From Sporomusa sphaeroides DSM 2875 (GTDB taxonomy: Bacteria > Bacillota > Negativicutes > Sporomusales > Sporomusaceae): a stretch of 64,000 nucleotides of DNA. Both the position numbers and the translations under genes were made by a program. The notes below the pieces were generated by a model. The model saw only the letters and a list, made by a program, of their open reading frames with translations, searched no databases and was not told where the DNA came from. The stretch covers positions 4,275,001 to 4,339,000 of the forward strand of contig NZ_CP146991.1 of NCBI RefSeq assembly GCF_001941975.2, written 5' to 3'. Positions 39,143-57,210 of this stretch are shown piece after piece. Position 1 is the first letter of the stretch. Each line of letters opens with the position of its first letter.

Positions 39143-39148
39143 TTACGC

Positions 39149-39778
39149 TTATTTACCCCTGCCTGCGGCAACAAGGTGATTGATATACTCCATTGCCGAC
39201 CGGGCATCCACTAAAACACGCCTGGCACGTTCTTCGTCGCTCGCCAGTTTTTTCCGGGCTGCCGCCAGGACAGCCGCCGCCTCCCCCTGCGGCACAGCAA
39301 CAACACCATCTGCATCCCCGCTGATTATGTCGCCGGGATGCACTATAGCATGGCCACAGGCTATGGGGACATTAATTGCACCGGCTCCGATTTTCTGGCT
39401 GCAGGCAACAGTTGTTCCGGTGCAGAAAACGGGAAAATTCAGCGCTTTGATGCTTTGCACATCACGAATCGTGCCATAGGCCACTACGCCGCCCAACCCA
39501 AGCGCCTGCACCAAACCGATAACAAAATCGCCGGCAACCGCCCGATAAGCATAATTCCCCGAATCAATCACCAGAATATCGCCTGGCCGGGCTTCCTTCA
39601 TCGCCGCCAGCACCATCATATTATCACCGGCCGGCATTTTGACGGTAATCGCCCTGCCGCAGATTTTGTACTCCTCTTTCAGGGGTTTGACCACAGGGTC
39701 GAAATTATGCAGTCCTTGCATAGCATCAGATATGCAGGTAGTCGGTAACCTCCCGAATTCCTCAATGACTTGCCGCAT
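39149..39778 (-). CDS. RraA-family aldolase / oxaloacetate decarboxylase
   Basis: The 209-residue protein has the RraA-like fold: CISDAMQGLHNFDPVVKPL, MPAGDNMMVLAAMKEARPGD, VAYGTIRDVQSIKALNFPVF (the conserved GxxRD) and HPGDIISGDADGVVAVPQG. Relatives cleave 4-hydroxy-4-methyl-2-oxoglutarate or 4-carboxy-4-hydroxy-2-oxoadipate and commonly decarboxylate oxaloacetate. In this operon, decarboxylation of the oxaloacetate released by citrate lyase to pyruvate is the simplest role, though inferred. True RraA (RNase E regulator) is unlikely given the neighbours. Confidence 0.85.
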   Translation of the reverse strand: MRQVIEEFGRLPTTCISDAMQGLHNFDPVVKPLKEEYKICGRAITVKMPAGDNMMVLAAMKEARPGDILVIDSGNYAYRAVAGDFVIGLVQALGLGGVVAYGTIRDVQSIKALNFPVFCTGTTVACSQKIGAGAINVPIACGHAIVHPGDIISGDADGVVAVPQGEAAAVLAAARKKLASDEERARRVLVDARSAMEYINHLVAAGRGK

Positions 39779-39808
39779 GTTCGCCTCCTAAGCTGTCTGC
39801 CGCCCGGG

Positions 39809-40585
39809 CTAGAGCTTCAGAACAGCAGCCAGTGTCTTCATTTTACCCGTGTCTTCGTTGCAGAGCCGGCCATAATAGTGCTGCTTCAGTTCATACCAGT
39901 GGTATTCGAATTGGAGTGCCCGCAAAATCCCCGCCTCCGTCAGTCCCCCGGCTTCACCAGTGCCGGCAAACACCACTTTTCTGGTTTCAAAGCCGTCCAG
40001 CACTCCGTTCAACTGTTGCAAAAAAGGAACCGATGCGGCGGTAACCCCTCCGCCCACCAGGCAAAAGAGCGAATGACGCTTGGCTGTGGCAAATAAATTT
40101 TTCGCAATGTCGAGCACTTGCGGGGCATTAACATCAGCAACACCCAGTGCCTTCACCAAATCGGAACGCCCCAGTACAATACCGTTCAACCGGCAAATAT
40201 TTTCAGCCCTCAGTATCTGGTCAATTTTTTCATAGCCATCGGTTGTCTCGATATTGATAAATACGTTCATAGCCGCCAGTTCTTCAGCGGCATATTCAGT
40301 GCTAACCATAGCAAGATACTTCTCCAGCGCAAATTTGGATTCGATCATGGGCGCCATGACCGTGTCCACCCCGAACATTTTAGCCAGACGCAAATCTGTC
40401 AGCGCCTCGCAGCCGCCAAGCTTGATGGTAAGGCCAACACCGGCGCGGAGTGTAAGCTCCTTGGTGCGGGCGATTTCCTCAAGCCGGATTCCTTCGGCTT
40501 CCAGGCTGCACTTAACAGCTACAGCGCCATATTGCTGCCGTAAGATTTTGAGCAATTCCACCAGCTTTTTCTCCAGAGCATTCAT
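39809..40585 (-). CDS. HpcH/HpaI-family aldolase (CitE-like)
   Basis: The 258-residue TIM-barrel protein belongs to the HpcH/HpaI superfamily. Visible parts are AVKCSLEAEGIRLEEIARTK (substrate loop), GVDTVMAPMIESKFALEKYL (metal Glu) and NVFINIETTDGYEKIDQ. It is shorter than CitE and clearly a different paralogue from the one at 36825. The family splits or joins 2-oxo- or acyl-CoA compounds. It sits between aconitase and the RraA gene (15 and 30 bases apart), so it acts in the same pathway. The exact substrate cannot be read. Confidence 0.75.
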   Translation of the reverse strand: MNALEKKLVELLKILRQQYGAVAVKCSLEAEGIRLEEIARTKELTLRAGVGLTIKLGGCEALTDLRLAKMFGVDTVMAPMIESKFALEKYLAMVSTEYAAEELAAMNVFINIETTDGYEKIDQILRAENICRLNGIVLGRSDLVKALGVADVNAPQVLDIAKNLFATAKRHSLFCLVGGGVTAASVPFLQQLNGVLDGFETRKVVFAGTGEAGGLTEAGILRALQFEYHWYELKQHYYGRLCNEDTGKMKTLAAVLKL

Positions 40586-40600
40586 CCTATCCCGCCTTTT

Positions 40601-42565: not shown

Positions 42566-42667
42566 CGTTACCCCTCCCATAGCCTCTGTCTTTTAACACA
42601 AATGCGGTATTGGCAAATTGGCCGCAGGTTCTCAACATGTATGACCAACTGCTTGGTTGAAAATTAT

Positions 42668-44197
42668 TTAGGCTTCTTCTACAACTACCTTTTTGCCCCT
42701 GAGCTTCATAACGGCAGGCACCATGACCCACAGGGCGGCAATAACCAGAAAAGCTAGTGAAACCGGATCTTTGACAAACATGGAATAATCACCGTTATAC
42801 AGGTTCATGGCCCGACGCAGATTATTCTCAATCATTGGCCCCAGAATCAGGGACAGGACAATCGGCGCGATAGGATAATCATTTTTAGCCAGATAATAAG
42901 CCGCCAGACCACTGCCAATCATCAGCAGCAGGTTGAATACACTGACCTGTACGGCGTAAACACCAAATACCGAAATAGCAACAATCCCGGGAATCAGATA
43001 TTTGGGCGGTGTCTCAATTACCTTGGCAAAAACTTTAACCAACGGCAGATTTAAAATCAGCAGCATAACATTGCCGACAATCATACTGGCAATCAAACCC
43101 CAGGCAACTTGCGGATGATCCTGAAACAACAGCGGCCCGGGGGTAATATTAAACATAATGAGCGCCCCCATTAGGACGGCGGTGGTCCCTGTGCCGGGTA
43201 TTCCCAGCGTTAAGAGCGGAATCATGGCTCCCCCGGCAGCTCCGTTATTGGCAGCTTCCGGCGCAGCCACTCCTTCAATCGCCCCTTTACCGAAGTTCGC
43301 TCTATTTTTGCTCAGTTTCTTCTCTACCGTATATACCATAAAGGAAGACAACGTAGCCCCGCAGCCAGGCACCAACCCCTGAAAAAATCCTAACAGCGAA
43401 CCGCGGAGGATGGGGACAGTACTGTCTTTCAAGTCCTGCTTGGTCGGCATTACCCTGCCGACTTTAATCGCCTCACCTTTTGCATAGTCATTGGTTAAGA
43501 TGGTTTTAAATACCTCGCCCAGCGCAAACATGCCTACTGCCAGTGTCAGAAATTCGATACCGGAATAAAGTTCCGAAAAACCAAAAGTAAGCCGGGCAAC
43601 GCCGGATATGGGATCAACCCCCACTGTAGCCAAGATTAAACCAAAGACGGTCATCATAAAGGCTTTGATCTGCGACTTGCCGGCCAGGCTGCTCAAGGCG
43701 CAAAGCCCCAGAATCATCAGGGAAAATTGACCGGCAGGACTAAACTTAAGGGCAAGTTCCGCGAGCGGAACAGCCATAAAGACAAGCCCGATGCAGGCAA
43801 TCACCCCGGCCACAAACGAAGCAATGGCGCAAATCGCCAGGGCCGGGCCGGCCCGGCCCTGTTTCGCCATCTGATAGCCGTCCAAAGTCGTGCAGACCGA
43901 GGAGTTCTCACCCGGCGTATTGATCAAAATGGCGGTCGTCGACCCGCCGTACATTGCCCCATAATATACGCCTGCCAGTAAGATTATAGAGCTGGTGGCA
44001 GCTTGTTCCGGCGGCAGCCCGCTTGTCAGCGTTGCGGTAACCGGGATAAGGAGAGCAACACCGCTAATCGGGCCGATTCCCGGCAGCACGCCCACCAGCG
44101 TCCCAATCAGACAGCCGAAAAATGCGAAAAATATATTAGTGGGTTCTAAGGCTATTGCGAGACCTTGAAAAAGAAATTGTAACGCTTCCACTTCCAT
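42668..44197 (-). CDS. tctA: tripartite tricarboxylate transporter, large membrane subunit
   Basis: The 509-residue protein has about twelve membrane helices and the TctA signatures GTLVGVLPGIGPISGVALLI and YYGAMYGGSTTAILINTPGE near residues 35-130, plus TLGIPGTGTTAVLMGALIMF in the second half. It is the sodium- or proton-driven permease of the TTT family. It follows tctB by 6 bases and lies about 100 bases upstream of the aconitase gene. Confidence 0.95.
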   Translation of the reverse strand: MEVEALQFLFQGLAIALEPTNIFFAFFGCLIGTLVGVLPGIGPISGVALLIPVTATLTSGLPPEQAATSSIILLAGVYYGAMYGGSTTAILINTPGENSSVCTTLDGYQMAKQGRAGPALAICAIASFVAGVIACIGLVFMAVPLAELALKFSPAGQFSLMILGLCALSSLAGKSQIKAFMMTVFGLILATVGVDPISGVARLTFGFSELYSGIEFLTLAVGMFALGEVFKTILTNDYAKGEAIKVGRVMPTKQDLKDSTVPILRGSLLGFFQGLVPGCGATLSSFMVYTVEKKLSKNRANFGKGAIEGVAAPEAANNGAAGGAMIPLLTLGIPGTGTTAVLMGALIMFNITPGPLLFQDHPQVAWGLIASMIVGNVMLLILNLPLVKVFAKVIETPPKYLIPGIVAISVFGVYAVQVSVFNLLLMIGSGLAAYYLAKNDYPIAPIVLSLILGPMIENNLRRAMNLYNGDYSMFVKDPVSLAFLVIAALWVMVPAVMKLRGKKVVVEEA

Positions 44198-44203
44198 CCC
44201 TCC

Positions 44204-44647
44204 TTAAAAAGGCAGCGGCGGTAATACGCCCAGGAATATTTCCACATAAAAATAGTAAATGCCGCCGGAAAATAGGGCTGCAATAATTGCTGAATGCAGG
44301 TATTTCCCTTTTTCCATAGTTTGAAAACCAGCGAACAGGAACAAAAAAGTAGAAATAACATAGCCAAGCGGCTCAATCAACAGTGCGTACAGCAGCAGTG
44401 AAATAAGAATGATAAAAAACTTCTTATACTCAAGCTGCTCTTGTTTATCAGGGGTTTTTGACCGGAGTGCCGCAATAAGATTCACCGTACTAAGAATAAC
44501 GAGAATTACCGCCAAAAAGCTGGGGAGGGCCTTCGGTCCGATAGCAATCCCCACATTGGATACTGTTAATGTTTCTGCATACAGATACAGTGCGACACCT
44601 AAAACTATGAAAAGGATACTTACATAGCGGTCAAACGCTTTATTCAC
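44204..44647 (-). CDS. tctB: tripartite tricarboxylate transporter, small membrane subunit
   Basis: The 147-residue protein has four hydrophobic helices, as expected for TctB (VSILFIVLGVALYLYAETLT, then GPKALPSFLAVILVILSTVN). GTG 44647 is preferred because the GTG at 44659 overlaps the AAGGAAGG site. It is poorly conserved in sequence, so the call rests on size, helices and its place between tctC and tctA. Confidence 0.88.
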   Translation of the reverse strand: MNKAFDRYVSILFIVLGVALYLYAETLTVSNVGIAIGPKALPSFLAVILVILSTVNLIAALRSKTPDKQEQLEYKKFFIILISLLLYALLIEPLGYVISTFLFLFAGFQTMEKGKYLHSAIIAALFSGGIYYFYVEIFLGVLPPLPF

Positions 44648-44670
44648 AACGCACTTCACCTTCCTTTCTA

Positions 44671-44709
44671 AAAACAGGGAGAAGACGGTGCTCTTCTCCC
44701 TGTTTTTTT
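44671..44709. terminator. hairpin between tctC and tctB
   Basis: AACAGGGAGAAG pairs with CTTCTCCCTGTT, with T runs on both sides. Placed after the binding-protein gene, it would let tctC be made in excess over the membrane subunits. Confidence 0.75.
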
Positions 44710-44723
44710 ACATGACCGAAAAT

Positions 44724-45749
44724 TTATTTCGCCATGCCCATCTCTTTATAGATTTCGGTATACATAATCTGTTCGGCTTTAATATGGTCGTAGAAGCCTT
44801 TTGCATCTTTAAAAGTGTAAATAACCCCTTGCTTTTTCAGTTCGTCTTTCCATTCTTGCGTATTGCACAGTTCTGCTACCTTTTCTGCCCAGTATTTCTT
44901 GGCAGGCTCAGGTATATCTTTCCCGGCGAAAACTCCGCGCCAGTTAGTGGTAACAACATCAAAACCCTGTTCTTTATAGGTGGGAATATCTTTCATAACT
45001 TCATCTTCGGCAATTCTTACTGCCGATGAAACACCCAATACTCTTACCCTGCCGGCTTGAACATACTGTTTAATGGAAGATACGTCGGAGGTCAGCGCGT
45101 CGGCATTGCCGCCAAGCAGAGCTGTCAAGGCTTCGCCGCCGCCATCATAGGTATTGTATTTCATGCCTTTAATATCAACACCGGCTTTGCGTGCAATCAG
45201 GACTGAGTTAAGATGATCCCAGGTCCCGGGAGCACCGCCGCCGCAGAATTGTACACTCGCGGGATCAGCTTTAGCGGCATCATACAGTTCTTTTAAAGTT
45301 TTATACTTGGAATCCGCTCTGACGGCAATAACTCCGTAGTCTTCCTGCAATAATGCCACAGGATATACCTGTTCAGGACCAATCGGGCTGTTTCCGTCTT
45401 TCTTGATATAATTTAAGATAAAAGGAGTAGACGCGATCATTAATTTATGATCATTCTTTCCATCCTGGGTAGCAAACGCTACCGTGCCTGTAACCTGTCC
45501 GCCACCGGGTTTGTTCTCGACCAGTAGTGGCTGGGTAACAATTTTCTTTTGATCAAAGATTTTTGCCATAGTTCTCGCAACCATATCAAGCCCACCGCCT
45601 GCCCCTGCGACGGCCAGCAGTGTTACTTGCTTCTGCGGCGTCCAGGCTTTCTTGTCGTCAGGCGCTGCCGCTTGTTTGCTGCAGCCGGCCAAACTGATTA
45701 CCAGCACAATGGCGAGCAGCACTGATAATAGCTTTGATTTTGAAAACAT
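44724..45749 (-). CDS. tctC: tripartite tricarboxylate transporter, substrate-binding lipoprotein
   Basis: The 341-residue protein starts at ATG 45749 after GGGAG. It has a lipoprotein signal peptide (LLAIVLVISLAGCSKQ, lipobox LAGC), so it is anchored by its cysteine. The mature part is a Bug/TctC family binding protein (VTLLAVAGAGGGLDMVARTM, NKPGGGQVTGTVAFA, GGGAPGTWDHLNSVLIARKA). It catches the substrate for TctAB and is the first gene of the operon. Homologues bind many carboxylates, so citrate is likely from context but not certain. Confidence 0.93.
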   Translation of the reverse strand: MFSKSKLLSVLLAIVLVISLAGCSKQAAAPDDKKAWTPQKQVTLLAVAGAGGGLDMVARTMAKIFDQKKIVTQPLLVENKPGGGQVTGTVAFATQDGKNDHKLMIASTPFILNYIKKDGNSPIGPEQVYPVALLQEDYGVIAVRADSKYKTLKELYDAAKADPASVQFCGGGAPGTWDHLNSVLIARKAGVDIKGMKYNTYDGGGEALTALLGGNADALTSDVSSIKQYVQAGRVRVLGVSSAVRIAEDEVMKDIPTYKEQGFDVVTTNWRGVFAGKDIPEPAKKYWAEKVAELCNTQEWKDELKKQGVIYTFKDAKGFYDHIKAEQIMYTEIYKEMGMAK

Positions 45750-46175
45750 CTTTGCACACTCCCTTTTAATAATTGATACAAAACATTGCCAATAACTGTT
45801 GTATCCGCTCCCTTCCATCCCTCCTCTAATTTATTAAATATTCAGAACATTATTATGAAGGTGAGTCCGACGGTGTACATTATTGCCACCTATTCCAGGC
45901 AGCAAAGGTATCAGCTTTCCTTATAGGCTGTTATGCCGCAAAGTATAGCTGCTGGTATAATTATAACTAATTTTTGTAAGGATGCATAATTCAGATAAAA
46001 AATGGAAATCCATTCAAATATTAAATATCAGAATATTAAGAGAGCAAATCGAAACAAAAAAACGGCAACCGGGGAGTAGCCGGAGGCCGAGCTTTTGTTG
46101 CAAAATCCGTGTATGCAAACCAAATGTTTAAGCGCCCCTTCCTGCTGCGATTGCGCAGCGAAACGGCAAACATTT
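45750..46175. other. gene-free stretch between tctC and the small secreted protein
   Basis: About 425 bases, including the presumed tctC promoter. An interrupted G+C-rich hairpin followed by seven T on the minus strand (46052-46090) probably ends the transcript of the 46176 gene. No credible reading frame is seen. Confidence 0.4.
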
Positions 46176-46876: not shown

Positions 46877-48103
46877 TCAGCCTAGTTTTACCCGCGCCGC
46901 AGTTTTTGCCCGCACTTCCTCCGGATCGACTTTAATCCTGGCCACACCTGTTTCCATAGCTGCCCGTGCCACCGCGGCGGCCACTGCCGGAGCTACCATT
47001 GGATTAAATACGTCAGGGACAATATAGTCCTCCCGCAATTCATTCTCAGGAATAATATTGGCGATAGCGTACGCTGCCGCAAGTTTCATCTCTTCGTTAA
47101 TCTGCCGGGCTCTTACGTCCAGGGCACCGCGGAATAGTCCCGGAAAAACCGATGAGTTGTTGACTTGGTTTGGTGCATCCGATCGGCCGGTTCCGGCTAC
47201 TCTTGCTCCGGCTGCTTTGGCGTCGGCATAGTAGGCTTCGGGGACTGGGTTAGCCATCGAAATAACAGTTGAATCCTTCGCCATACTGCCGATGATCTCC
47301 TTGGTAAATATACCGGGAGCAGAAACTCCGGCAAGGACATCCGCCCCTGCAGCGATCTACGCAAGGTTCCCTTGCAATTTATTCTTGTTGGTGTCTTTAG
47401 CCAATTCAGCCTGCACCCGGTTTAATCCAGGCATACCTTCATACAGCGCGCCGGCCATGTCCACCATAATAACGTTTTCTGCACCGGCGTTGAGCAGTAT
47501 CCTGCCGATAGCCGTTCCGGCAGCCCCAGCGCCGTTAACAACTATTTTCACGTTTTTTATATCTTTTTTAACAAATCTTAACGCACCGAGAATGCCAGCC
47601 AGAGCGGCGATCGCCGTACCATGCTGGTCGTCATGAAATACGGGGATATTCATTTCCTTTTTCAGAATATCCTCGATATCATAGCATTTAGGCGAAGAGA
47701 AGTCCTCGAGATTTATGCCTGCAAAGCTAGGTTCAAGCAGTTTTATTGTTTCAATAATTTTTGCTTGATCTTTCGTACCGAGACAAATAGGCACGGCATC
47801 CACATCGGCAAAGGTCTTATAAATTACACTTTTGCCTTCCATAACCGGCATGGCGGCTTCAGGCCCGATATCACCAAGACCGAGAACACGGGTACCGTCA
47901 GAAATAACAGCTATCATGTTGCCCCGGCAGGTATACTCAAAAGAAAGATCTTTGTTTAGTGCTATCTCCTTACAGGGTTCAGCAACCCCGGGAGTATAGG
48001 CAATACTGAGGTCATGCATATTCTTAAGCGGCATTTTACTGGCAACCTGCAATTTCCCCTGATGTTCTTTATGCGCATTTAAGGCTTCTTCTCTAATGTC
48101 CAT
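46877..48103 (-). pseudogene. NAD(P)-dependent malic enzyme interrupted by an in-frame amber codon
   Basis: Two open parts are in the same frame: 48103-47357 (248 residues from ATG 48103, MDIREEALNAHKEHQGKL, with GAGGGG ribosome site) and 47356-46877. A single TAG at 47357-47359 lies between KLQGNLA and IAAGADVLAGVSAP. Most homologues have Asp or Glu here, and GAG to TAG is one base change. Both halves have normal malic-enzyme motifs ([53 protein letters not shown]). Total length, about 408 codons, is normal. The enzyme would turn malate into pyruvate and CO2. It is either freshly inactivated or a sequencing error. Confidence 0.85.
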
Positions 48104-48264
48104 GTAATCCCCTCGTATTATAAAGTAGTAGTGATTAGAGCCCCTCTCCAAGGGCTATGTGCTACAATGTTTAAGGACACTGACCGGTTACCGTTTCGAC
48201 AAGGCAAAGCAACTTACAGCCGGCTCCAATAACTTACGAATGAGTCGCTGGGGTTGTATCCCTG

Positions 48265-49533
48265 CTATTTATTGATTAAAGGAACGGTTATGCTTCCCAT
48301 TGGCATAAGAATAATACGCGGCTGTGACATACCTAATGTATTCATAGCAATTTTCATTGCTTCTTCCATATCCTTGGCCGGTGTGAATAGTAACAGCCGG
48401 GCAAGTTCCGGCGGCATGGATGAAACTAGAATAAAGTGAGCTTTTTTCATTAACCGGGTAACCGCGAAGGCTTTATGTGCACCTATCTGAAAATCCGCCC
48501 TAACAGCAGTTTCCACTTGCTCAGGTGTCGTATATTGCTGCATAGTTTTCTCGTAGGTTGCCGATCCGGAACCGTCCGCACATTCTCCGAGAATAATCAC
48601 TACGCCGCCCTTCCGGACCGCGCACCAGGCATTATCCATTGTCTTCTGTAACTGATAGACATTAATATCCTTGGGGTAGCCGCCGCAAGAGGCAATGACT
48701 AAATCAGCTTCTTTCTCCACAGGCACCCCGTACACGTCATTTACAAACTCGCAACACTCCCGGTGGGCTTGAATATAGTCGCCTGCGAATACTCTTAAAA
48801 ATTCTTTTTTTTCGTTTAACACGACATTAATCAAAAAGGAGGGCCGGCACATTTCCGTACCTTCTACCTGATCATGATATATTGGGTTTCCCTCTAGTTT
48901 ACCGATTACAGCATTGGAATCCAGCATCAAACTATGATTTTTGCGAACAGTTTCATAGTAAGCGACACCCGGCAGCATGGCTTTGCGCCCGCCGCCGAAA
49001 CCAGCAAAAAAGTGATGTACGACACTGCCTGTACAAATAATGTGATCGGCTTCCACAACCTTGTTATTAAAATAAACGGGCGTTCCATAGGAAGTTGTCC
49101 CAAAATACCGGAACTGTCCTTCATCCCGGCAATCGCTGTTATACATCCTCACCCTTTGTGCCACAGCGCTACCAACTTCACCAACCATCTCTTCTTCAGT
49201 CATCAGCCGGTGCGTTCCCAGTGCGAACACAATCCACATATCCTTGTCCGGAATCCCTGCACTGTTAAGCTCATCAAGCAGTATTGGCATAAAAATATGG
49301 CTATTGGCTACCCTGGTAGTATCATTGACAATAAATACAACAGTTTCACCGGGCTTGACAATATCCCGTAACGGCTTACACCCGATCGGGTTACGAATTG
49401 CCTCTCGGACAGACTCTGCAGGGGCAGGCAAAACCGAACATTGTTTAATATATAATTCATCAGTTACTAACGAGTCGTCAATAGTGAAGTTGACTTTTCC
49501 TTTGCCATACTTATAAGTATAATCCTTTTGCAT
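48265..49533 (-). CDS. larA: LarA-family nickel-pincer racemase
   Basis: The 422-residue protein (ATG 49533, GGAG 10 bases upstream) belongs to the lactate racemase LarA family (DUF2088). The active-site region reads GSVVHHFFAGFGGGRKAMLP with the paired His and the Lys that holds the nickel-pincer cofactor, and then VRKNHS with the nickel-ligand His. LarA proteins racemise or epimerise 2-hydroxy acids. Beyond lactate, homologues act on malate and sugar acids. The cofactor genes larB, larC and larE are absent here. Its neighbours are a broken malic enzyme and a SucD fragment, so a malate or similar hydroxy acid is a reasonable guess. Confidence 0.85.
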   Translation of the reverse strand: MQKDYTYKYGKGKVNFTIDDSLVTDELYIKQCSVLPAPAESVREAIRNPIGCKPLRDIVKPGETVVFIVNDTTRVANSHIFMPILLDELNSAGIPDKDMWIVFALGTHRLMTEEEMVGEVGSAVAQRVRMYNSDCRDEGQFRYFGTTSYGTPVYFNNKVVEADHIICTGSVVHHFFAGFGGGRKAMLPGVAYYETVRKNHSLMLDSNAVIGKLEGNPIYHDQVEGTEMCRPSFLINVVLNEKKEFLRVFAGDYIQAHRECCEFVNDVYGVPVEKEADLVIASCGGYPKDINVYQLQKTMDNAWCAVRKGGVVIILGECADGSGSATYEKTMQQYTTPEQVETAVRADFQIGAHKAFAVTRLMKKAHFILVSSMPPELARLLLFTPAKDMEEAMKIAMNTLGMSQPRIILMPMGSITVPLINK

Positions 49534-49720
49534 ACTCAATACACTCCATACTTTTTATTTATAAGATTGCCCATGTAACCAGATTTTTGCCAATAGTCTC
49601 CGGGACATCGCCTTCCGCATTAGGTCAATCTTAATATACTTCAAACTACCGTTAAAGTGAATAAATTAGATGGATTTTATTCCAAATAACAATAATTATT
49701 GTAACCGGTGGACTAATAGA

Positions 49721-50032: not shown

Positions 50033-50566
50033 TTATAGAACTTGTTTTAACAGTTCGACGATCTCGTCCGGGCTGTCGGCAATATGCACACCGGCGGCCG
50101 TCAGAATATCTATCTTGGATTCAGCACTGCCCGCGCCATCCGCACCCACGATAGCGCCTGCATGACCCATTACTTTGCCTTTCGGCGCGTGTCTGCCGGC
50201 AATGTAGGCTATGACCGGCTTTTTCATGTGATTTTTTATATAACTGGCGGCAGTCTCTTCATCCGTTCCGCCAATCTCGCCAATTAAAACAACGGCCTCC
50301 GTTTGTTCGTCCTCTTCAAACATCGGCAGCAGCTTGACAAACGAGGTGCCGGGAATTACGTCACCGCCCACACCTACACAAGTAGACTGGCCGATACCGT
50401 TCTTGGTCATTTCATTCACCGTTTCATAGGAGTTTGTTGCACTGCGGGACATTAAGCCAACTGAACCCTCGCTGTAAATCCGGTGGTCCATAACGTAAGT
50501 TTCATCCGTCAATTTAACTGAAACCAAATAACGGAAAAAGGAGGTGGCGCAAAACGCTCTATGCAT
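50033..50566 (-). pseudogene. succinyl-CoA synthetase alpha (SucD) C-terminal fragment
   Basis: The reading frame holds only the second half of a SucD-type protein. It runs from about [20 protein letters not shown] through [40 protein letters not shown] and the phospho-histidine loop GKVMGHAGAIVGADGAGSAE. The N-terminal CoA-binding Rossmann domain (about 120 residues) is missing. The first 25 residues of the frame look random. No beta subunit (SucC) is adjacent. It is probably the remnant of a CoA ligase, perhaps acting on malate or succinate. Confidence 0.8.
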
Positions 50567-50587: not shown

Positions 50588-50677
50588 TTTTTTATTTTAC
50601 AAATTTTATAATTGTTTCCCCAAAGAGATACGCAAGCCCCGATAATGGATTATTATTTCCACTATCGGGGCTTTGCT
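50588..50677. repeat. palindromic repeat copy 2 with a tail of the small secreted gene
   Basis: 50628-50677 repeats 46780-46830 with three differences. Just beside it, 50588-50610 shares TTTTATTTTACAAATTTTAT with 46174-46193, the last codons (IKFVK and stop) of the small secreted gene. In this copy the body of that gene is absent, so it looks like the deleted remains of a duplicate cassette. Confidence 0.7.
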
Positions 50678-50685: not shown

Positions 50686-52125
50686 TTATTTTGCCAATAA
50701 TACCGCTATGGCTTCTTTGAGTGTATTTTGTTCACCGACATTGCCCGGAAAAATAATGAAAGGTATTTGCGGAAATTTACTTTCCGCGCCGGTTTTCCAT
50801 ACCGGTATGCCTGGCCGGATCTGGCCCAGCACATTTGCCTGCTTGATCTTCAGCGCTTTTGTCCCAATATCACTGGAAGTAATGCCGCCCTTGGCGACAA
50901 TGAAGGCCGGAGTCACCTGCAGCCTGCCAACCAGCGACTGGACGGCCTCCGATATTTTGACAGAACGGGCCAATGCGTCCTGGGGAGAATCATCTTCTAA
51001 TGACAACAGCCGCCGTTTGGTGTGGACAACTACGGTAGTGCCTTGGCGTAACAGTTCTTCTTCCTGCTTTACGACCGACGCAATTTCCGCCTGAAAACGC
51101 TCTTCATCCAGCACTAAGTCGGAATTGAACTCGATAACCTGTATTCCCGGCAAGGTTTTTAACTCTTCCAGTTGGCTTGTCGTCTTTTGCGTATGAGAGC
51201 CAACCACAACGATACCGCCGGCGGCGATATCGCCGGTTATCATATCCCGCCTGGTCAGCAGCGGCTTATCGGTGATTGCACCCAGCTCTTTGACAAAGCC
51301 GGCCGCTGTGCGGAACAGAAACTGTTTGCCCTGAGCCATTGCGCGGTAAAGCGCGATACAGAACACTTTTATATCACAGGCATCAATGGCATTGACAACT
51401 ACTTTGCCGAAATTGGTCATAGCCATGAGTTTGTCGGCAATCCCCTGAATATTTAGTGCCCGCAGCTCTTGCAGGGAAATGGCAACCACATTTTCTTTTT
51501 TGTAAAGTCCCCGGGATTTTTCTTCAATATAGGCGGATAAGTCCGATGATGTATAGCCAAAGGTCTTATCCTTGGCAAATTCAGTTTCCCCTGCCGGAAC
51601 CAGGGCATCACCATACTGAACATAGTGAATATTATCAATGGTAAACCGGCCGCCTTCTTTAAAATAAGGGCAGATGATTTCCCCGTCAACCTTTTTGCCT
51701 GTATGATGCTCCCATTGCTCCTGCAGCATCATGGTTTCCAGAGGATAATGCCCCCTGAGGGTCGAGTCGCTGCGGCTGACAATCAGATAATCCCGCCCCT
51801 GTTCACCGGCAACCCTGGCAATCATCGCCCCGATATCCCGGTGGGCTTTGCTTGTCTGCTCTTGGGTAAACCCGCGCGAGTTTGTCAAAATGTAAAATAC
51901 TTTGTTCTTTTCCTGAAAGCCCTGACTAACACTTTCATAAGTCCAATCGGTATATACCGAAATGTCGTGAACAGTTTGCGTACCTGTCGGATCATCATCC
52001 AGTACAATAATTTTGCGGGGGTCACCGGCAACAGCTTGTTGTAACAGCAACGCCACATGATTTTCATCGACCTTAGGATAGGACTTCAGCCGGTCAGCAC
52101 TCAGGTGTGGTAGTGATTTCATCAT
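50686..52125 (-). CDS. four-carbon acid sugar kinase family (DUF1537) protein
   Basis: The 479-residue protein matches the DUF1537 kinases that phosphorylate 4-carbon sugar acids (threonate, erythronate, 3-oxo-tetronate). The N-terminal substrate domain has KIIVLDDDPTGTQTVHDISV and LIVSRSDSTLRGHYPLETMM. The C-terminal nucleotide domain has TPAFIVAKGGITSSDIGTKA and ends IIFPGNVGEQNTLKEAIAVL. It is the last intact gene of the operon, 13 bases after the BKACE gene. The acid phosphorylated is unknown, and the neighbours differ from characterised DtnK/OtnK operons. Confidence 0.88.
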   Translation of the reverse strand: MMKSLPHLSADRLKSYPKVDENHVALLLQQAVAGDPRKIIVLDDDPTGTQTVHDISVYTDWTYESVSQGFQEKNKVFYILTNSRGFTQEQTSKAHRDIGAMIARVAGEQGRDYLIVSRSDSTLRGHYPLETMMLQEQWEHHTGKKVDGEIICPYFKEGGRFTIDNIHYVQYGDALVPAGETEFAKDKTFGYTSSDLSAYIEEKSRGLYKKENVVAISLQELRALNIQGIADKLMAMTNFGKVVVNAIDACDIKVFCIALYRAMAQGKQFLFRTAAGFVKELGAITDKPLLTRRDMITGDIAAGGIVVVGSHTQKTTSQLEELKTLPGIQVIEFNSDLVLDEERFQAEIASVVKQEEELLRQGTTVVVHTKRRLLSLEDDSPQDALARSVKISEAVQSLVGRLQVTPAFIVAKGGITSSDIGTKALKIKQANVLGQIRPGIPVWKTGAESKFPQIPFIIFPGNVGEQNTLKEAIAVLLAK

Positions 52126-52138
52126 TTCAACATCCTAT

Positions 52139-52942
52139 TCATCTGCTGAGTATATTGAAGTATTTTCTGGCCTCAGCAGGAGTCATCGGCTCTTTATCCA
52201 TGGCTTTGAGCAACCGGGCGGTTTTCTCCACCAGCGGTACATTGCTGTCAACAGTGGTATGAGCATCCAAATAGTTGCTATCTTCAAAACCAATTCTAAC
52301 CGTGCTGGCCCCCATGCCTAACGCGGCGGCAATAATGGAAAAATCCCGTCTGTTGGCATGGGTAATCCCCCACAGCGCCTCCGGCGGTATCATTTGAATC
52401 ATGGCAGCCAGTGCCTGCGGGGTAGCAGGCGCTTCGCCCTTATGCCCCAGAACGATGCTAAACAGCACCGGGGCACGAAAATCGTACTGCTCCATAAATT
52501 CCTTCATGGCAAAGATGTGGCCAATTTCAAAAACTTCCACTTCCGGTGTCTTGTTCATCCTTAATAATTCACCAATGCAGTATTCCACATCATCAAGCGG
52601 ATTGCAATATACAGCCTTCCCCAGATTGGTGGAGCCGACATTCAGAGAGCAGGCCTCGACAAGCTCCGAATACAGGGGAACACAGCGTTCCTGTATGGAA
52701 AGCCGGGAAACACCGCCTGTCGATACTTCAATGATGATATCCGAGTCTTTGCGGATCAACCGGAGTGTTTCCTCCAGGAGACTCATATCGGTAGTCAGGT
52801 TGCCGGCAGCATCACGGACATGCAAATGTACCATCGCAGCGCCGGCTTGCCAGCATTGTAAAACTTCTGCCGCAATGTTAGCGGGAACAATATGTTTATC
52901 CGTACTCGCTACCGGAGCAACGGAAATCATCACTTTATCCAT
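52139..52942 (-). CDS. BKACE-family beta-keto acid cleavage enzyme (DUF849)
   Basis: The 267-residue TIM-barrel protein belongs to the beta-keto acid cleavage enzymes, first known as 3-keto-5-aminohexanoate cleavage enzyme. Zinc ligands are in AGAAMVHLHVRDAAGNLT. Other conserved parts are IIIEVSTGG, ACSLNVGSTN and ASTVRIGFEDSNYLD, with the Arg and Asp of the active site. Such enzymes combine a beta-keto acid with acetyl-CoA to give acetoacetate and a new acyl-CoA. It overlaps the aldolase gene by 8 bases. Its pairing with a sugar-acid kinase suggests a 3-oxo sugar acid as substrate, which is inference. Confidence 0.88.
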   Translation of the reverse strand: MDKVMISVAPVASTDKHIVPANIAAEVLQCWQAGAAMVHLHVRDAAGNLTTDMSLLEETLRLIRKDSDIIIEVSTGGVSRLSIQERCVPLYSELVEACSLNVGSTNLGKAVYCNPLDDVEYCIGELLRMNKTPEVEVFEIGHIFAMKEFMEQYDFRAPVLFSIVLGHKGEAPATPQALAAMIQMIPPEALWGITHANRRDFSIIAAALGMGASTVRIGFEDSNYLDAHTTVDSNVPLVEKTARLLKAMDKEPMTPAEARKYFNILSR

Positions 52943-53786
52943 TATTGCCCTCCTTGTAGGAAAACGCTATATACTTTTTTACAATATCTTTTACATAGCC
53001 AATCTGGTTTAAGGAAACTTCGGAAAAATGAGGCTGTTGAGCTGCTAACAGTCCGGTTGTCTGTTGGACAGCATATACCGAGATTTCGGTATTGACATTG
53101 ATTTTGGCAATGCCCCGGGCGATACAGGCTAAGATATCCTGCTCCGGCAGCCCCGAGCCGCCGTGTAAAACCAGCGGCACGGCAATCAGCCTGTTAATTT
53201 GTTCCAATATATCAAGCCGCAGCAACGGTGCTGCCTGATATAACCCATGTACCGTCCCAATAGAAACAGCCAAAGCATCCACCTGTGTCATTTCCACAAA
53301 CTGTTTTGCCAGTGCAGGCTCGGTATATACCTGTACACTGGTTGCAGACCCTTCGTGGGAATGTTCACCGGCCGCCAGACACCCCAGTTCGGCTTCGACC
53401 GTTACACCGCAGGCATGAGCTACCCGGCAAACTGCCGCCGTATTCTTTACATTTTCCGCAAAGGGCAATTCCGAGCCATCATACATTACCGAGCCAAACC
53501 CTGCACGAATAGCGCGAAAAACAGTAGCTAAGTCACTGCAATGATCAAGATGCAGGCAAACAGGGGCGGCACTCCCCTCGCCTAGGCTTTTAGCAAGGGC
53601 ATAGGCCGTTTCCAGGGACATATTCTGCAGATACTTGGCGCCAAAGGCCAAAATAACCGGTTTCTGCGTTTCCGCTCCAGCATCAATGATGCCTTTGAAG
53701 GTTTCATAGTTATAGCCATTGAAAGAACCAACCGCATAATGATTGCGATAAGCGTCTTTAAGTATGTCTTGCAAATTCACCAGCAT
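52935..53786 (-). CDS. class II fructose-bisphosphate/tagatose-type aldolase
   Basis: The 283-residue zinc aldolase resembles the GatY/KbaY group. The catalytic Asp and a zinc His are in PVCLHLDHCSDLATVF, a further metal Glu is in TVEAELGCLAAGEHSHEG, and phosphate binding is in LVLHGGSGLPEQDI and KINVNTEISVYAVQ. It splits a phosphorylated keto compound to DHAP and an aldehyde. It is co-transcribed with a kinase that could make its substrate. The true substrate is uncertain because FBA-like enzymes occur in many sugar-acid pathways. Confidence 0.88.
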   Translation of the reverse strand: MLVNLQDILKDAYRNHYAVGSFNGYNYETFKGIIDAGAETQKPVILAFGAKYLQNMSLETAYALAKSLGEGSAAPVCLHLDHCSDLATVFRAIRAGFGSVMYDGSELPFAENVKNTAAVCRVAHACGVTVEAELGCLAAGEHSHEGSATSVQVYTEPALAKQFVEMTQVDALAVSIGTVHGLYQAAPLLRLDILEQINRLIAVPLVLHGGSGLPEQDILACIARGIAKINVNTEISVYAVQQTTGLLAAQQPHFSEVSLNQIGYVKDIVKKYIAFSYKEGNNG

Positions 53787-53838
53787 GGTAAATGCCCCTT
53801 AGTGGGTTATCGGCACGGTTTTGCGCTCAGTCTCAGCT

Positions 53839-54555
53839 TTAACCGGTTACCTTTTCCCAATATTGATAATGAGTTTCCACTACTTCATTGATTTTAGTCC
53901 GGTCCTTTTCTTTGAGTACACGGACCATTTCTCTATGCATAAGCAGAAACTGCTGTGTTGCATTTTCATTAATAAATTTTTCGGTGGCTTTCAGCCTGGA
54001 TTTTTTGGTTATTTGATCAATATAGGAGCAGATTCCTTCTAATAACGCATTTTGCGTAATCGCGACAAGCACCATGTGAAAGGCCGTATCGGCTTCAAAT
54101 ATAGCATTGGCATCCATGTTTTCCTCAGCAATTTTCTGTTCCAGTGCCTCCATCGCCTGTTCGACTTTATGCACGGAATCCAAGTCCAGCTTTTCCATAG
54201 CCAATTGAAAAATGCCTGCATCAATTACTTTACGCAATTCCACAATTTGTTTGGCCGAATCCTTTTGTAAAATAATTCCGTACAAAACAGGGTAGAGCAT
54301 TTTGCTGTCAAAGCCTTGGTTTACAAAAGTTCCTTCCGCCCGCTTGATGGTAAGGACACCGTAGGCAACCAATATCTTTATTGCCTCACGCACAGAATTT
54401 CGCGCAACGCCCATGGATGCGCAAAGCTCATTTTCTGTTGGAATCTTGTCTCCGGGTTTCAACTGTTCATTAATAATCGCATTGGTAATATTGTCAACAA
54501 TCTGATCAACAACAGATTTTCCGCCTATTTCTTTTAAAAAAGTTTGCACCGGCAT
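53839..54555 (-). CDS. FadR-type GntR-family regulator
   Basis: The 238-residue protein has an N-terminal winged helix (PTENELCASMGVARNSVREA IKIL) and a C-terminal FCD all-helical domain (RKVIDAGIFQLAMEKLDLDS, then EADTAFHMVLVAITQNALLE). FCD proteins bind organic acids or sugar acids and repress catabolic operons. It sits inside the operon it probably controls, between the aldolase and DUF336 genes. A perfect palindrome of the FadR-family type lies before the first gene (56909-56927). A weaker one (GTATAACATCATAC) lies upstream of this gene near 54585. Confidence 0.9.
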   Translation of the reverse strand: MPVQTFLKEIGGKSVVDQIVDNITNAIINEQLKPGDKIPTENELCASMGVARNSVREAIKILVAYGVLTIKRAEGTFVNQGFDSKMLYPVLYGIILQKDSAKQIVELRKVIDAGIFQLAMEKLDLDSVHKVEQAMEALEQKIAEENMDANAIFEADTAFHMVLVAITQNALLEGICSYIDQITKKSRLKATEKFINENATQQFLLMHREMVRVLKEKDRTKINEVVETHYQYWEKVTG

Positions 54556-54699
54556 GTTGGACCCCCTGATGATATTTATTCTCTAAGTATAACATCATAC
54601 ATTGGCCCAAAACAATATAAGGCATCTTGCGGCACAATACTCTTTCACAGGCAAGCGGATTCAGATGGGGTTAAACCCCCACCTGAATCAAGTCTCCAT

Positions 54700-55116
54700 T
54701 TATAAAGTTGGCGCAGCGGCAGCAACCTTAGCGGCAATTTCTCCGTCCTCTTTCATACCGCCAATACCTACGGCGCCAATAACTTGCTGCCTGTCATTAA
54801 CAATAGGCACTCCGCCCGGCAATCCCACAAACTTTTCGTCGGAAAAGTAGGAAATATTAAGATTTTCCCGCTGTAGACGCTGTAAAAAATCGGCCGTGCT
54901 TACTCCCATCCTGGCAGCGGTATACGCTTTATTGGGAGTAAGGTTGATGGTTAACAATTTGGCTCCGTCCAGCTTGTGAAACAGAACCAGGAAGCCATCC
55001 TTATCACAAACCGCCACACTGAAAGGCTTCCTGCCATATTCTTGGGCAACAAGCTCTTCGGCGTAGTCTGCCACTTTTTTTGCCGTTGTCAAGGTGATAT
55101 TATCCAATATCTTCAA
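54700..55116 (-). CDS. GlcG/HbpS-like (DUF336) protein
   Basis: The 138-residue protein begins KILDNITLTTAKKVADYAEE and has FSVAVCDKDGFLVLFHKLDG and a glycine-rich FVGLPGGVPIVNDRQQVIGA end. This is the GlcG/HbpS/PduO-C fold, which binds heme or small ligands. Genes of this family often accompany glycolate, propanediol and sugar-acid operons. Here it lies between the transporter and regulator genes, so it may act as an accessory or ligand-binding protein in this pathway. Its exact role is unknown. Confidence 0.85.
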   Translation of the reverse strand: MKILDNITLTTAKKVADYAEELVAQEYGRKPFSVAVCDKDGFLVLFHKLDGAKLLTINLTPNKAYTAARMGVSTADFLQRLQRENLNISYFSDEKFVGLPGGVPIVNDRQQVIGAVGIGGMKEDGEIAAKVAAAAPTL

Positions 55117-55142
55117 CCCCTTCTTTAACTTCGCCAGCGTTG

Positions 55143-56114
55143 TTATTGCCGGGTGCTGCCGGCTTGAGCCATAGCCAATTCCTTTTTCTCTTCCTGCTCA
55201 CGCCAGTAGCTGGCCAACAGCGGACCGGTAAGATTGTGAGCCAGGTTAAATATCGCGGCAGGTATGAAGGCTAACGGGGCAAGATGGGCTAAGGCCAATG
55301 CCATCGCCAGTCCTCCATTTTCCATGCCGATTTCAAAACAAATAGCCTTAGCTTTGAAATGAGGCATTCCCACAGCACGTGCTGCCCAATAGCCGGTTGT
55401 AAGACCAAGTATATTATGCAGAAATACGGCAATTATGGAAATCACCGCAACCTGGGCCAGCGATCCGGCGCTGAGCGCAAAGCCTGAGCTTGTCGTAATG
55501 AAGATAGCGATAACCGAGACAATCGGAATGACCGGCATAATCCTGTCAACAAAATCCGAAGCAACGCCGCGAATAACAGCGCCTAAAAATACGGGTACCA
55601 GGACGATCTTCAAGATATCCAGCAAAATCTTTTCTGCATCAACCGGAACAAACGAGCCGACCAGAAAAGCGAACATAAAGGGAGTAATTAACGGAGCAAT
55701 GATGGTATTAATGGTAGATACTGTGATCGACAGCGCTGTATCCCCTTTAGCCAAAAATGTCATAACATTGCTGGCCACGCCGCTGGGACAACAACCTACC
55801 AGAATCAACCCGGCTGCCAAAACCGGCGGTAAACTAAGAACCTTGGTCAAAAATAACGCAATAAACGGCATGATGATATACCGCAAAACGATACCCCAAA
55901 AAACATCCTTAGGGCGTGAAAAAACCAGCTTAAAGTCATTTATTGATACGGTTAGTCCCATGCTCAACATTACGGCCATAATGCAGTAGGGTACATATTG
56001 GGATAACGGCTTAAACGGTTCAGGATTGTAATAGGCAGCAATAACACCTAAAATAATCCACACGGAAAAATACCTTGTAATAAACTTTACCATACTCCCC
56101 AATTTTTCCAGCAT
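55143..56114 (-). CDS. BASS-family sodium symporter
   Basis: The 323-residue protein has about ten membrane helices and the bile acid:sodium symporter family signature: AVMLSMGLTVSINDFKLVFS, LVGCCPSGVASNVMTFLAKG and AICFEIGMENGGLAMALALA. Bacterial members carry pantoate, 2-keto acids and similar organic acids with sodium. As the only transporter in the operon it should import the pathway substrate. It lies 26 bases upstream of the DUF336 gene. Confidence 0.92.
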   Translation of the reverse strand: MLEKLGSMVKFITRYFSVWIILGVIAAYYNPEPFKPLSQYVPYCIMAVMLSMGLTVSINDFKLVFSRPKDVFWGIVLRYIIMPFIALFLTKVLSLPPVLAAGLILVGCCPSGVASNVMTFLAKGDTALSITVSTINTIIAPLITPFMFAFLVGSFVPVDAEKILLDILKIVLVPVFLGAVIRGVASDFVDRIMPVIPIVSVIAIFITTSSGFALSAGSLAQVAVISIIAVFLHNILGLTTGYWAARAVGMPHFKAKAICFEIGMENGGLAMALALAHLAPLAFIPAAIFNLAHNLTGPLLASYWREQEEKKELAMAQAGSTRQ

Positions 56115-56218
56115 TATTTACGCTCCTTTACACCTTAATCAAACTGAGTTGCTTTTTGGTTAAGACTGAATTTATATTGCTTTGTACCTATTAATACAAG
56201 TTCCATTGCCAGTTCGCG

Positions 56219-56890
56219 TTATAATAAGCCTTTTTTTGCCAATGCTTCCTTGAGTGCAGCAGCCCCGAATCGCGGACTGGATAGCACCGGTTTCCCGCAT
56301 TTTTCATGGATATATTCTTCACAATAGGCCATTGAACCTTGGGCAAATAAAATCACGTCAACCCTATCGCTGATTTCCCCCGCATAGTTTGTCATCAGTT
56401 CTTTGAACTGTTTCTGATCAAGCCCGAAAGCACCGTCAACTAAAACATCAACCAATTCCACATGCTTATTCATTTCCCGCGCCACCCGTAAGATGGTATT
56501 TTTAGTGGGCGTCAGCGTTGTCGGCAAGGTAGCCATCACACCGATACGGACACCTTGCCGGACAGCTTCCCTGCACATGTCTTCATCGATACGCACAATA
56601 GGAATACCTGTATATTTGGCAATATCCTGGGCAGCATCCGCCACCTCCCCTACTGAGGAACAGATGTTGAGAATAGCGTCAGCCCCATCGCTTACTGCCT
56701 TCATATACATGCCGACAAGTCTGGCCGCCGGAGGTGCCGTAACATATCCGGCCTCCCGGACCTCTGCCAGAATTGACGGGTCCTGATTACTAATAATCTC
56801 CGTACCCTGCGGCAGTAACTGACGAACCTCCTTCTCCACCAATTCAATCAATTCCGGGGTAGTACTCGTATACACCAAAGCAACCTTCAT
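56219..56890 (-). CDS. aspartate/glutamate racemase family protein
   Basis: The 223-residue protein belongs to the Asp/Glu/hydantoin racemase superfamily. The first catalytic cysteine is in ADAILNICSSVGEVADAA near residue 80. The position of the second reads VILFAQGSMAYCEEY, so that Cys is not in its usual place. This suggests an isomerase, decarboxylase or a racemase with a one-cysteine mechanism. It is the first gene of the operon and carries the FadR-type palindrome in its promoter. The likely task is conversion of a stereoisomer on entry, by inference. Confidence 0.8.
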   Translation of the reverse strand: MKVALVYTSTTPELIELVEKEVRQLLPQGTEIISNQDPSILAEVREAGYVTAPPAARLVGMYMKAVSDGADAILNICSSVGEVADAAQDIAKYTGIPIVRIDEDMCREAVRQGVRIGVMATLPTTLTPTKNTILRVAREMNKHVELVDVLVDGAFGLDQKQFKELMTNYAGEISDRVDVILFAQGSMAYCEEYIHEKCGKPVLSSPRFGAAALKEALAKKGLL

Positions 56891-56927: not shown

Positions 56928-57210
56928 CATCCTACATTTAACTGTTCACATTATCTCATATTTCTCTTTTAAAGTAAATAGCGACTTTTCAGATATTTCA
57001 ATCGGGTTAATTTTTAATAGATACCTTTAACATTTTTCATCATATTATAAGAAAAAAGAGTAAACTCAGCCAATCTGGCAGAATAAAAAAGAGTTACGCA
57101 AAATGAAAGGCTTTTTTACTTTATAAATAAATTTACTGCGCCCAAAAATTACAAATTTGTGCTAGAATATTCTTATTGAAAAAGTAGTGTTTAACTGGAG
57201 AAAATGAATC

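Follow-up and report, generated by a model that had tools for sequence, protein, structure and literature searches.

Kinases of the DUF1537 family phosphorylate 3-oxo-tetronate and 3-oxo-isoapionate, in agreement with the names of the corresponding NCBIfam models. Such a kinase operates in the OtnI-OtnK-OtnC/LtnD pathway, which degrades threonate and erythronate and ends in dihydroxyacetone phosphate (DHAP), and in the apionate pathway, where OiaK phosphorylates a 2-C-branched 3-oxo-tetronate that is then decarboxylated by a RuBisCO-like enzyme. Here, we examine an operon in a 64,000-nucleotide stretch of Sporomusa sphaeroides DSM 2875 (contig NZ_CP146991.1, positions 4,275,001 to 4,339,000; hereafter, the window), which encodes a DUF1537 kinase together with a protein of the BKACE/DUF849 fold and a member of the Asp/Glu-racemase superfamily. 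We estimate a probability of roughly 55% that its products import and degrade aceric acid, a rare branched sugar acid found in plant cell walls, in side chain B of rhamnogalacturonan II (RG-II), and that the bacteria concerned scavenge it in free form.

The operon comprises seven minus-strand open reading frames (ORFs) occupying positions 50686-56890, all of which were assigned to families at scores above the Pfam gathering thresholds. In the order of transcription, they are:

56219..56890, minus strand: Asp/Glu-racemase-superfamily protein, the proposed aceric acid aldose-ketose isomerase (PF01177, Asp_Glu_race, 55.1 bits, cutoff 31)
55143..56114, minus strand: BASS-family transporter, the proposed acid importer in Negativicutes (PF01758, SBF, 141.9 bits)
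54700..55116, minus strand: HbpS-like/DUF336 protein, accessory (PF03928, 92.7 bits)
53839..54555, minus strand: FadR-type GntR/FCD regulator, the presumed operon repressor (PF00392, 69.7 bits, and PF07729, 56.4 bits)
52935..53786, minus strand: class II aldolase of the fructose-bisphosphate aldolase (FBA) type, proposed to catalyze the final step in Negativicutes (PF01116, 280.4 bits)
52139..52942, minus strand: BKACE/DUF849-fold Zn enzyme, proposed to decarboxylate the phosphorylated ketose, a beta-keto acid (PF05853, 209.2 bits)
50686..52125, minus strand: DUF1537 kinase, the proposed kinase of the aceric-acid ketose (SBD_N, PF07005, 169.7 bits, cutoff 25; NBD_C, PF17042, 120.1 bits, cutoff 28.3)

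The intergenic gaps are 104, 26, 144, 52, -8 and 13 bp, the FBA and BKACE genes overlapping by 8 bp. An initial annotation, made from the sequence alone, had named these seven genes in this order and remarked on the absence of PdxA-type and OtnC-type genes; both points are borne out, as no gene of either type was seen among ORFs of at least 80 amino acids between 46000 and 62000 (ten of which were matched to Pfam), and no OtnI, OtnC or dehydrogenase gene was seen in the operon. Also upheld is its view that the genes serve together in handling an acid, combining transport, kinase and aldolase functions, and that they are distinct from threonate/erythronate operons. Like the OtnI-OtnK-OtnC/LtnD pathway, the operon would direct a DUF1537 kinase at an acid of the 3-oxo-tetronate type and yield DHAP; unlike it, the operon employs a racemase-fold protein, a BKACE-fold protein and, in some loci, an aldolase instead of a dehydrogenase, OtnI and OtnC.

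This gene order recurs in nine other Negativicutes genomes at 67-90% identity, which places the arrangement beyond chance. Eight of these genomes have all seven genes; the ninth, the soil metagenome-assembled genome CTSoil_075 (L031/L171), has no FBA gene in the operon and a 56% FBA relative elsewhere. The FBA and kinase genes are truncated in Sporomusa acidovorans (L027/L032), where tblastn found the FBA gene without a middle stretch and the kinase gene without its N-terminal half, alongside full-length racemase, BASS and BKACE genes; the operon may be decaying there. BKACE orthologues (81-89% identity) were found in six genomes besides the source genome, the next best proteins reaching 37% (60 genomes, own included), and the racemase-like protein occurs in 10 copies at 87-100%, with two further relatives at 40-41% (300 genomes of the class, own included). 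Two other BKACEs outside the operon type are encoded by the source genome itself. Judged by these identities and the gap to the next best proteins, the operon is patchily distributed, highly similar in sequence where present, and sharply set apart from other BKACEs.

The contigs of named genomes, as well as 397 genomes of the [Clostridium] citroniae family (Lachnospiraceae), were scanned with an alignment of seven orthologues, extending the BKACE-like family down to 40% identity. We selected 42 loci carrying an operon-type BKACE-like gene, on stretches of 6-21 kb (some terminated by contig ends); L030-L034, which are copies of counted genomes, and L047-L108, which encode other DUF849 proteins with at most 34% identity to the window BKACE, were excluded from the count, and one genome, G561, contributes two loci (L225 and L232). 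A racemase-like protein is encoded in all 42 loci (36 of the window type, six of a second type at ∼34%), a DUF1537 kinase in 34, a FadR-type regulator in 25 and a TRAP transporter in 11. FBA (9/42), BASS (10/42) and DUF336 (10/42) genes were seen only in Negativicutes, GH127 genes are present in nine loci, bacterial microcompartment (BMC) shell genes in four, and a small protein that we read as a cupin in eight (e.g. L217:1737-2129 and L035:9603-9956); the latter may act as another isomerase or as a mutarotase. Eight loci have no kinase gene, two of them (L043 and L045) on contigs that end within ∼1 kb of the BKACE gene, and five of the eight genomes without a local kinase encode one elsewhere, at 61-63% identity to the L224 kinase. 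In L225, kinase and BKACE are fused in one 747-amino-acid ORF. Based on these counts, the racemase-like protein, the DUF1537 kinase and the BKACE-like protein almost certainly form a conserved functional unit, the core, while FBA, BASS and DUF336 look like a Negativicutes addition. FBA was thus rejected as a core gene, in contrast to the initial annotation. A neighbourhood search of the kind suggested there pointed to RG-II and aceric acid.

That link comes from GH127, the family of the aceric acid hydrolase. A GH127 gene stands between the racemase and kinase genes in seven loci (L226-L229, L232, L235 and L236), between the racemase and BKACE genes in L233, and beside the core in L221. All four copies run against Pfam (L226, L221, L265 and L266) matched GH127; in an NCBIfam search with seven copies (L226, L221, L265, L266, L232, L236 and L267), NF049879, 'aceric acid hydrolase', was the only match, nearly full length at 711.5-771.1 bits, although all scores lie under its cutoff (950 bits), with no second GH127 model to set them against. 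The PDB chain nearest to the L226 protein is 5mqo (472 bits vs. 313 for the next), which we take to be BT1003. BT1003 is described as the hydrolase of RG-II aceric acid (3-C-carboxy-5-deoxy-L-xylose; PMC10850190, PMC5698469), and Gal-beta-1,2-aceric acid is a substrate of the GH2 enzyme BT_0993 (PMC11739564). The linked clusters also carry GH42, GH2, GH29, GH43, alpha-L-rhamnosidase and GH140 apiosidase-like genes, and the Lachnospiraceae clusters resemble RG-II degradation loci. In genome G460, one strand of ∼30 kb encodes an alpha-L-rhamnosidase, GH127, GH42, a two-component system and a sugar ABC transporter (both assigned by reading), GH140, and then the core region, in the order cupin, kinase, racemase, TRAP transporter, regulator, BKACE, AraD-family aldolase, aldehyde dehydrogenase (split over two ORFs) and microcompartment genes.

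The association extends to genome content. Among the 397 genomes, 22 encode the BKACE-like protein (E<=1e-55) and 17 encode GH127 (E<=1e-90), and 16 encode both, against 0.94 expected (Fisher test, which ignores phylogeny, 9.3e-23); in a second family (uncultured Clostridiales G310, 19 genomes), seven have BKACE, seven have GH127 (E<=1e-150) and six have both (p 0.0017, with the same reservation). Among genomes without GH140, two of three GH127 genomes have BKACE (p 0.0009), and among those without GH127, one of four GH140 genomes does (p 0.06); on these few genomes, the conditional tests favour GH127 over GH140 as the BKACE partner. We conclude that, in Lachnospiraceae, the core is very probably connected with RG-II and with the family of the aceric acid hydrolase.

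Four loci (L217-L220) add a microcompartment: here the core adjoins genes encoding an AraD-family aldolase, an aldehyde dehydrogenase, PduL and BMC shell proteins, the BMC matches being found in all four. For L218, the aldehyde dehydrogenase scores 640.8 bits (cutoff 403) against PRK15398, presumably the EutE type, and PduL 266 bits (cutoff 209), with Pfam scores of 102.2 (PF00936), 255.5 (PF06130) and 109.7 bits (PF00171). In this locus (L218:823-9016), the microcompartment genes, including several BMC proteins and a vertex-type protein by reading, directly follow the core; in L217-L220, they are followed by genes for a pyridine-nucleotide-disulphide oxidoreductase and an Fe-alcohol dehydrogenase (by Pfam for L217). 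Aldolase-type microcompartments serve fucose/rhamnose, and share with L217-L220 the AraD-family aldolase, aldehyde dehydrogenase, PduL and shell proteins; unlike those, L217-L220 are linked to the racemase/BKACE/DUF1537 core and a TRAP transporter, and are possibly an unrecognised BMC type.

Aceric acid, 3-C-carboxy-5-deoxy-L-xylose, is an aldose, for which a dehydrogenase would be unnecessary, fitting a core that lacks one. We infer the following route from the genomes, as regards the substrate in S. sphaeroides as well as each reaction and the reaction order. Free aceric acid would be imported by the BASS transporter and isomerised by the racemase-fold protein to the ketose 2-C-(1-hydroxyethyl)-3-oxo-tetronate (CH2OH-CO-C(OH)(COOH)-CHOH-CH3), a beta-keto acid that can be viewed as 3-oxo-tetronate with a 1-hydroxyethyl branch at C2. 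The DUF1537 kinase would then phosphorylate the CH2OH adjoining the ketone, in line with the action of its relatives on 3-oxo-tetronate and 3-oxo-isoapionate. Removal of CO2 by the BKACE-like Zn enzyme would give a 5-deoxy-pentulose 1-phosphate, which a class II aldolase would cleave to DHAP and acetaldehyde. The aldolase would be FBA in Negativicutes, the AraD-family protein in L217-L220, and elsewhere perhaps an FBA-type paralogue. An acetaldehyde product would explain a microcompartment containing aldehyde dehydrogenase and PduL. We put forward these exact reactions tentatively, at slightly under even odds; that the window operon shares the aceric acid substrate with the GH127-linked core is probable.

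The final step would be like that of the DHAP shunt for 5-deoxyribose salvage, where cleavage of 5-deoxyribulose 1-phosphate to DHAP and acetaldehyde is a known aldolase reaction (PMC6079011), although the present route would start from a carboxylated sugar and rely on a DUF1537 kinase, an isomerase of the racemase fold and an aldolase of the FBA type or the AraD family. The FBA-type protein scores 248 bits against TIGR00167 (cutoff 215.6), and falls short of the fructose/tagatose bisphosphate aldolase equivalogs TIGR01859 (248.1 bits, cutoff 343.05) and TIGR01858 (214.7 bits, cutoff 443.55); its best PDB relatives include KbaY, AgaY and YdjI, and alignments to such relatives reveal HLDH, GGSG and NVNTE motifs, presumably the phosphate and metal motifs of class II aldolases. 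FBA-type paralogues exist in each of 11 Clostridia genomes searched, where relatives of the window FBA do not exceed 48%, or 44% over >200 residues. The AraD-family proteins of L217, L219 and L220 score alike, at 54-73 bits, against MtnB, FucA and OtnC models, all under cutoff; since these scores are alike, the AraD-family protein could be the decarboxylase and the BKACE-like protein the C-C lyase, giving an alternative order of the last two steps. The NCBIfam model nearest to the BASS transporter is PanS (275.5 bits, cutoff 400).

The racemase-like protein adopts the Glu/Asp racemase fold, its AlphaFold2 model (predicted local distance difference test, pLDDT, 94.0) matching glutamate racemase 2ohg at Z 21.3, in keeping with its PF01177 domain. 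It does not have the two catalytic cysteines of Asp/Glu/hydantoin racemases: in an alignment of 28 of the 35 type I racemases, C77 is invariant, and the second Cys position of allantoin racemases, presumably catalytic in the superfamily, is Gln184 in all 28, as located through weak sequence matches with 5lfd and 3qvj. This tells against the stereochemical adjustment envisaged in the initial annotation; by way of argument rather than result, a single acid/base group is more in keeping with an aldose-ketose isomerase, where the proton moves on one face, than with a racemase that works with two bases.

The model of the BKACE-like protein (pLDDT 94.5) matches Kce (2y7f) with Z 35.1 and a root-mean-square deviation of 1.8 over 263 residues, at 28% identity. 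In an alignment of 35 of the 41 operon-type sequences, the Zn-ligand positions H39, H41 and E220 are invariant, as are R216, D221 and E136, so that the protein resembles Kce and other BKACE enzymes in TIM-barrel fold, Zn-ligand positions and acidic/basic catalytic residues. It differs from them in its genomic partners and in three marks, His167 (35/35 vs. 0/75 in other DUF849 proteins), Arg198 (35/35 vs. 11/75) and Ser222 (35/35 vs. 2/75), the comparison set having been drawn from 77 other DUF849 loci, which yielded 76 proteins, one of them gapped at the counted positions. The catalytic Tyr described for characterised BKACEs (Tyr145 of Kce; PMC12871164) is Phe138 in all 35 operon-type sequences. 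Changed chemistry in this family has precedents, as the same source describes BsfD as a DUF849 enzyme of changed chemistry with Phe at the Kce Tyr position, and PMC4922564 reports two DUF849 groups without BKACE activity, G6 ('not BKACE, presenting decarboxylation activity') and G7.

The kinase falls far short of the NCBIfam models for D-threonate kinase (70.6 bits, cutoff 450), 3-oxo-tetronate kinase (26.5 bits, cutoff 350) and the 3-oxo-isoapionate kinase OiaK (NF042436, 21.5 bits, cutoff 700), and a PDB search with its sequence returned nothing at E<=0.001. The operon would share with the apionate pathway a 2-C-branched 3-oxo-tetronate, a DUF1537 kinase and a subsequent decarboxylation, and differ from it in the weak OiaK match and in employing a BKACE-fold protein. 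In a kinase tree of 47 rows (L227 and L228 are not among them, nor are kinases from the G309 and G307 loci), the window kinase groups with 25 core kinases, itself counted, and the L170 kinase (clade I), apart from other Negativicutes kinases.

Several related gene groups were seen in passing. A lone kinase remnant in the same genus (G008, L168:9652-10791) is 80% identical to the window kinase from residue 142, with no racemase or BKACE of the core type in its surroundings. L170:1966-7410 encodes a tartronate semialdehyde reductase-like protein, a GntP-type permease, a DUF1537 protein (63% to the window kinase), a racemase-like protein and FBA, without BKACE; L165:6284-10486 encodes a racemase-like protein (34%), DUF1537 and FBA beside fructose-type phosphotransferase system genes, also without BKACE, and in L164 the same phosphotransferase genes and a kinase gene run to the end of the contig. 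Loci L152-L157 of other Negativicutes combine DUF1537, an FBA-type aldolase, a GntP-type permease and a gene that clusters with its L152 counterpart, itself a match above cutoff to tartronate semialdehyde reductase; this gene content suggests cleavage of a 5-keto-hexonate 6-phosphate to DHAP and tartronate semialdehyde. We dropped such a route for the window operon, since no BKACE relative was found in loci of this type and their kinases form another group.

A number of observations weigh against the aceric acid assignment, in addition to the GH127 scores below cutoff and the tests that ignore phylogeny. RG-II enzymes travel together, and 15 of the 18 genomes with GH140 in the 397-genome set also carry BKACE. 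The GH127-linked kinases of L226, L229, L232, L235 and L236 (clade II) fall outside the window clade, so that only L221 of the six GH127-adjacent loci in the tree groups with the window, and the 'core' label needs two changes. This split is a real weakness, offset by GH127-linked members of clade I: L221, where GH127 is adjacent to a core of the window type; L042/L265 (Mediterraneibacter agrestimuris), with GH127 ∼8 kb downstream on the same strand, in a region that also carries a DUF5060/apiosidase-like gene and an alpha-L-rhamnosidase gene; L217/L266, with GH127 ∼12 kb upstream on the same strand; and the uncultured Clostridia G307, G309 and G310, where GH127 matches of 628-717 bits lie elsewhere in the genome. 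GH127 was found in none of the ten Negativicutes operon genomes, source genome included (E<=1e-60); the window substrate is therefore proposed by homology to loci of its racemase type that are linked to GH127 or a microcompartment, to whose proteins the racemase is 61-73%, the kinase 44-62% and the BKACE 40-59% identical. The six genomes with a TRAP-and-cupin core (L035, L037-L041) likewise gave no GH127 match or one of at most 323 bits; these and the Negativicutes genomes keep TRAP or BASS transporters for free acids, fitting scavengers. Matches to NF049879 are weaker in the microcompartment genomes G365 and G624 (460 and 416 bits) and in G308 (429 bits), and none was obtained in the microcompartment genome G348 or in G531. 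G469, G531 and G309 combine BKACE and racemase without any DUF1537 at E<=1e-20, and G388, the one GH127 carrier with no BKACE match at E<=1e-55, has a DUF1537 gene (60% to L224, one internal stop) ∼0.9 kb from GH127. At the level of the enzymes, no sugar isomerase occurs among the PDB matches listed for the racemase-like protein, including the 50 listed entries of the fold search, a result that does not exclude an isomerase. The Tyr-to-Phe change was dropped as proof of lost coenzyme A (CoA) chemistry, as Phe is also found in 32/75 other DUF849 proteins and is not diagnostic. Decarboxylation by the BKACE-like protein is a proposal, and the CoA-contact positions are mixed: Arg198 aligns, by a hand count on the alignment, with the CoA-contact Arg226 of BsfD and is retained, and Lys is not kept at the BsfD Lys254 position (no Lys among the letters listed for 33 of the 35 sequences; only 32/75 other DUF849 proteins have it).

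The same residues bear on the route originally envisaged, in which import of a linear sugar acid is followed by racemisation, phosphorylation and cleavage, with BKACE and acetyl-CoA yielding acetoacetate. The retained BKACE fold, metal and catalytic residues (except Tyr) and the aligned Arg would suit this; the missing Lys, the rarity of Gly at the next position (5/35 vs. 71/75 in other DUF849 proteins), the Gln at the second racemase Cys position and the dispensability of FBA speak against it, and the ketose proposed here lacks the alpha hydrogen that Claisen chemistry requires. We found no support for the acetyl-CoA step and consider this route improbable. A less remote, if still unlikely, explanation is a convergent replacement of OtnI-OtnK-OtnC acting on a C4 acid (2- or 3-oxo-tetronate, e.g. 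from ascorbate), with the racemase-like protein as 2-oxo/3-oxo isomerase, DUF1537 as kinase, and the BKACE-like protein converting 3-oxo-tetronate 4-phosphate to DHAP. Such an already oxidised acid would need no dehydrogenase, BASS and TRAP transporters suit free acids, and the nearest NCBIfam models of the kinase are those for D-threonate and 3-oxo-tetronate; the scores nevertheless lie far below the cutoffs, and GH127 within operons, its co-occurrence, the aldolase and the aldehyde microcompartment would go unexplained.

Among substrates that would retain the link to RG-II, another of its acids or oxidised apiose (apionate/isoapionate), with DUF1537 as an OiaK-like kinase, seems a little less likely again than a C4 acid. 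OiaK does belong to a DUF1537-family model, GH140 apiosidase-like genes occur in L236 and L217/L266, and BKACE is frequent in GH140 genomes; however, it is GH127, not GH140, that stands between core genes, the conditional counts (small numbers) point the same way, and apiose breakdown requires dehydrogenase steps, for which the core has no enzyme. Least probable, in our estimate, is hitchhiking, whereby GH127 and the core have no functional connection in RG-II specialists, and the core acts on a different, common plant acid: 6 of the 22 BKACE genomes in the Lachnospiraceae set have no GH127 (E<=1e-90), as in the ten Negativicutes genomes searched, yet GH127 lies between racemase and kinase genes in seven loci and a second family shows the association again.

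Around the operon, a divergent EamA transporter gene is the upstream neighbour, and downstream lie what is left of a succinyl-CoA ligase alpha gene, its C-terminal part, and a LarA-family gene. Two candidate signals flank the genes:

50636..50671, minus strand: inverted repeat GCCCCGATAGTGG ... CCATTATCGGGGC, a plausible terminator 3' of the kinase gene (direct sequence reading)
56950..57073, minus strand: weak promoter-like hexamers upstream of the racemase gene (promoter scan)

The inverted repeat has a longer loop than the limit of 3-8 in the terminator scan and is thus absent from the scan list. Promoter-like sites in the region (15, against 11.5 expected from shuffles, standard deviation 3.2) are not above chance, and the region as a whole is at shuffle level in the promoter/terminator scan. 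Positions 50033-50566 of the window encode the C-terminal part only of the succinyl-CoA ligase alpha subunit (profile 137-288/291), probably a fragment, and 48265-49539 a LarA-family 2-hydroxyacid racemase (nearest models LarAH10 and LarAH6, both under cutoff). Two minus-strand ORFs at 46877-48151 jointly resemble one malic enzyme when their translations are read by eye, with a possible frameshift, and 35278-45818 holds an operon that, from its translations, resembles citrate lyase subunits, an aconitase-like protein, a tripartite tricarboxylate transporter and a LysR regulator.

RG-II is described as present in all plants (PMC12168206). The linked clusters share GH127, GH2/GH42, GH140-like and alpha-L-rhamnosidase genes with the RG-II degradation system of B. 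thetaiotaomicron (BT1003, BT_0993), to which the core would add catabolism of the released acid; the source genome, by comparison, has no such hydrolase (E<=1e-60). Among the papers and excerpts returned by our literature search, several concern the hydrolase that frees aceric acid and none the bacterial fate of the freed acid; DUF1537 appears with BKACE in no paper, and with DUF849 in a review only. It is conceivable, at a little below even odds, that the route outlined here is the first proposal for bacterial aceric acid catabolism, that its one-cysteine racemase-fold isomerase, branched-3-oxo-acid kinase and CoA-independent decarboxylase represent familiar folds in new roles, and that in some gut bacteria a microcompartment of a new type handles acetaldehyde derived from RG-II. 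If true, three enzymes are assigned to an orphan sugar, one DUF849 group gains an activity, each step is directly testable, and the presence of the core in some anaerobes without the hydrolase is explained by cross-feeding. From the genomes, the core is probably part of the missing bacterial pathway for eating aceric acid.

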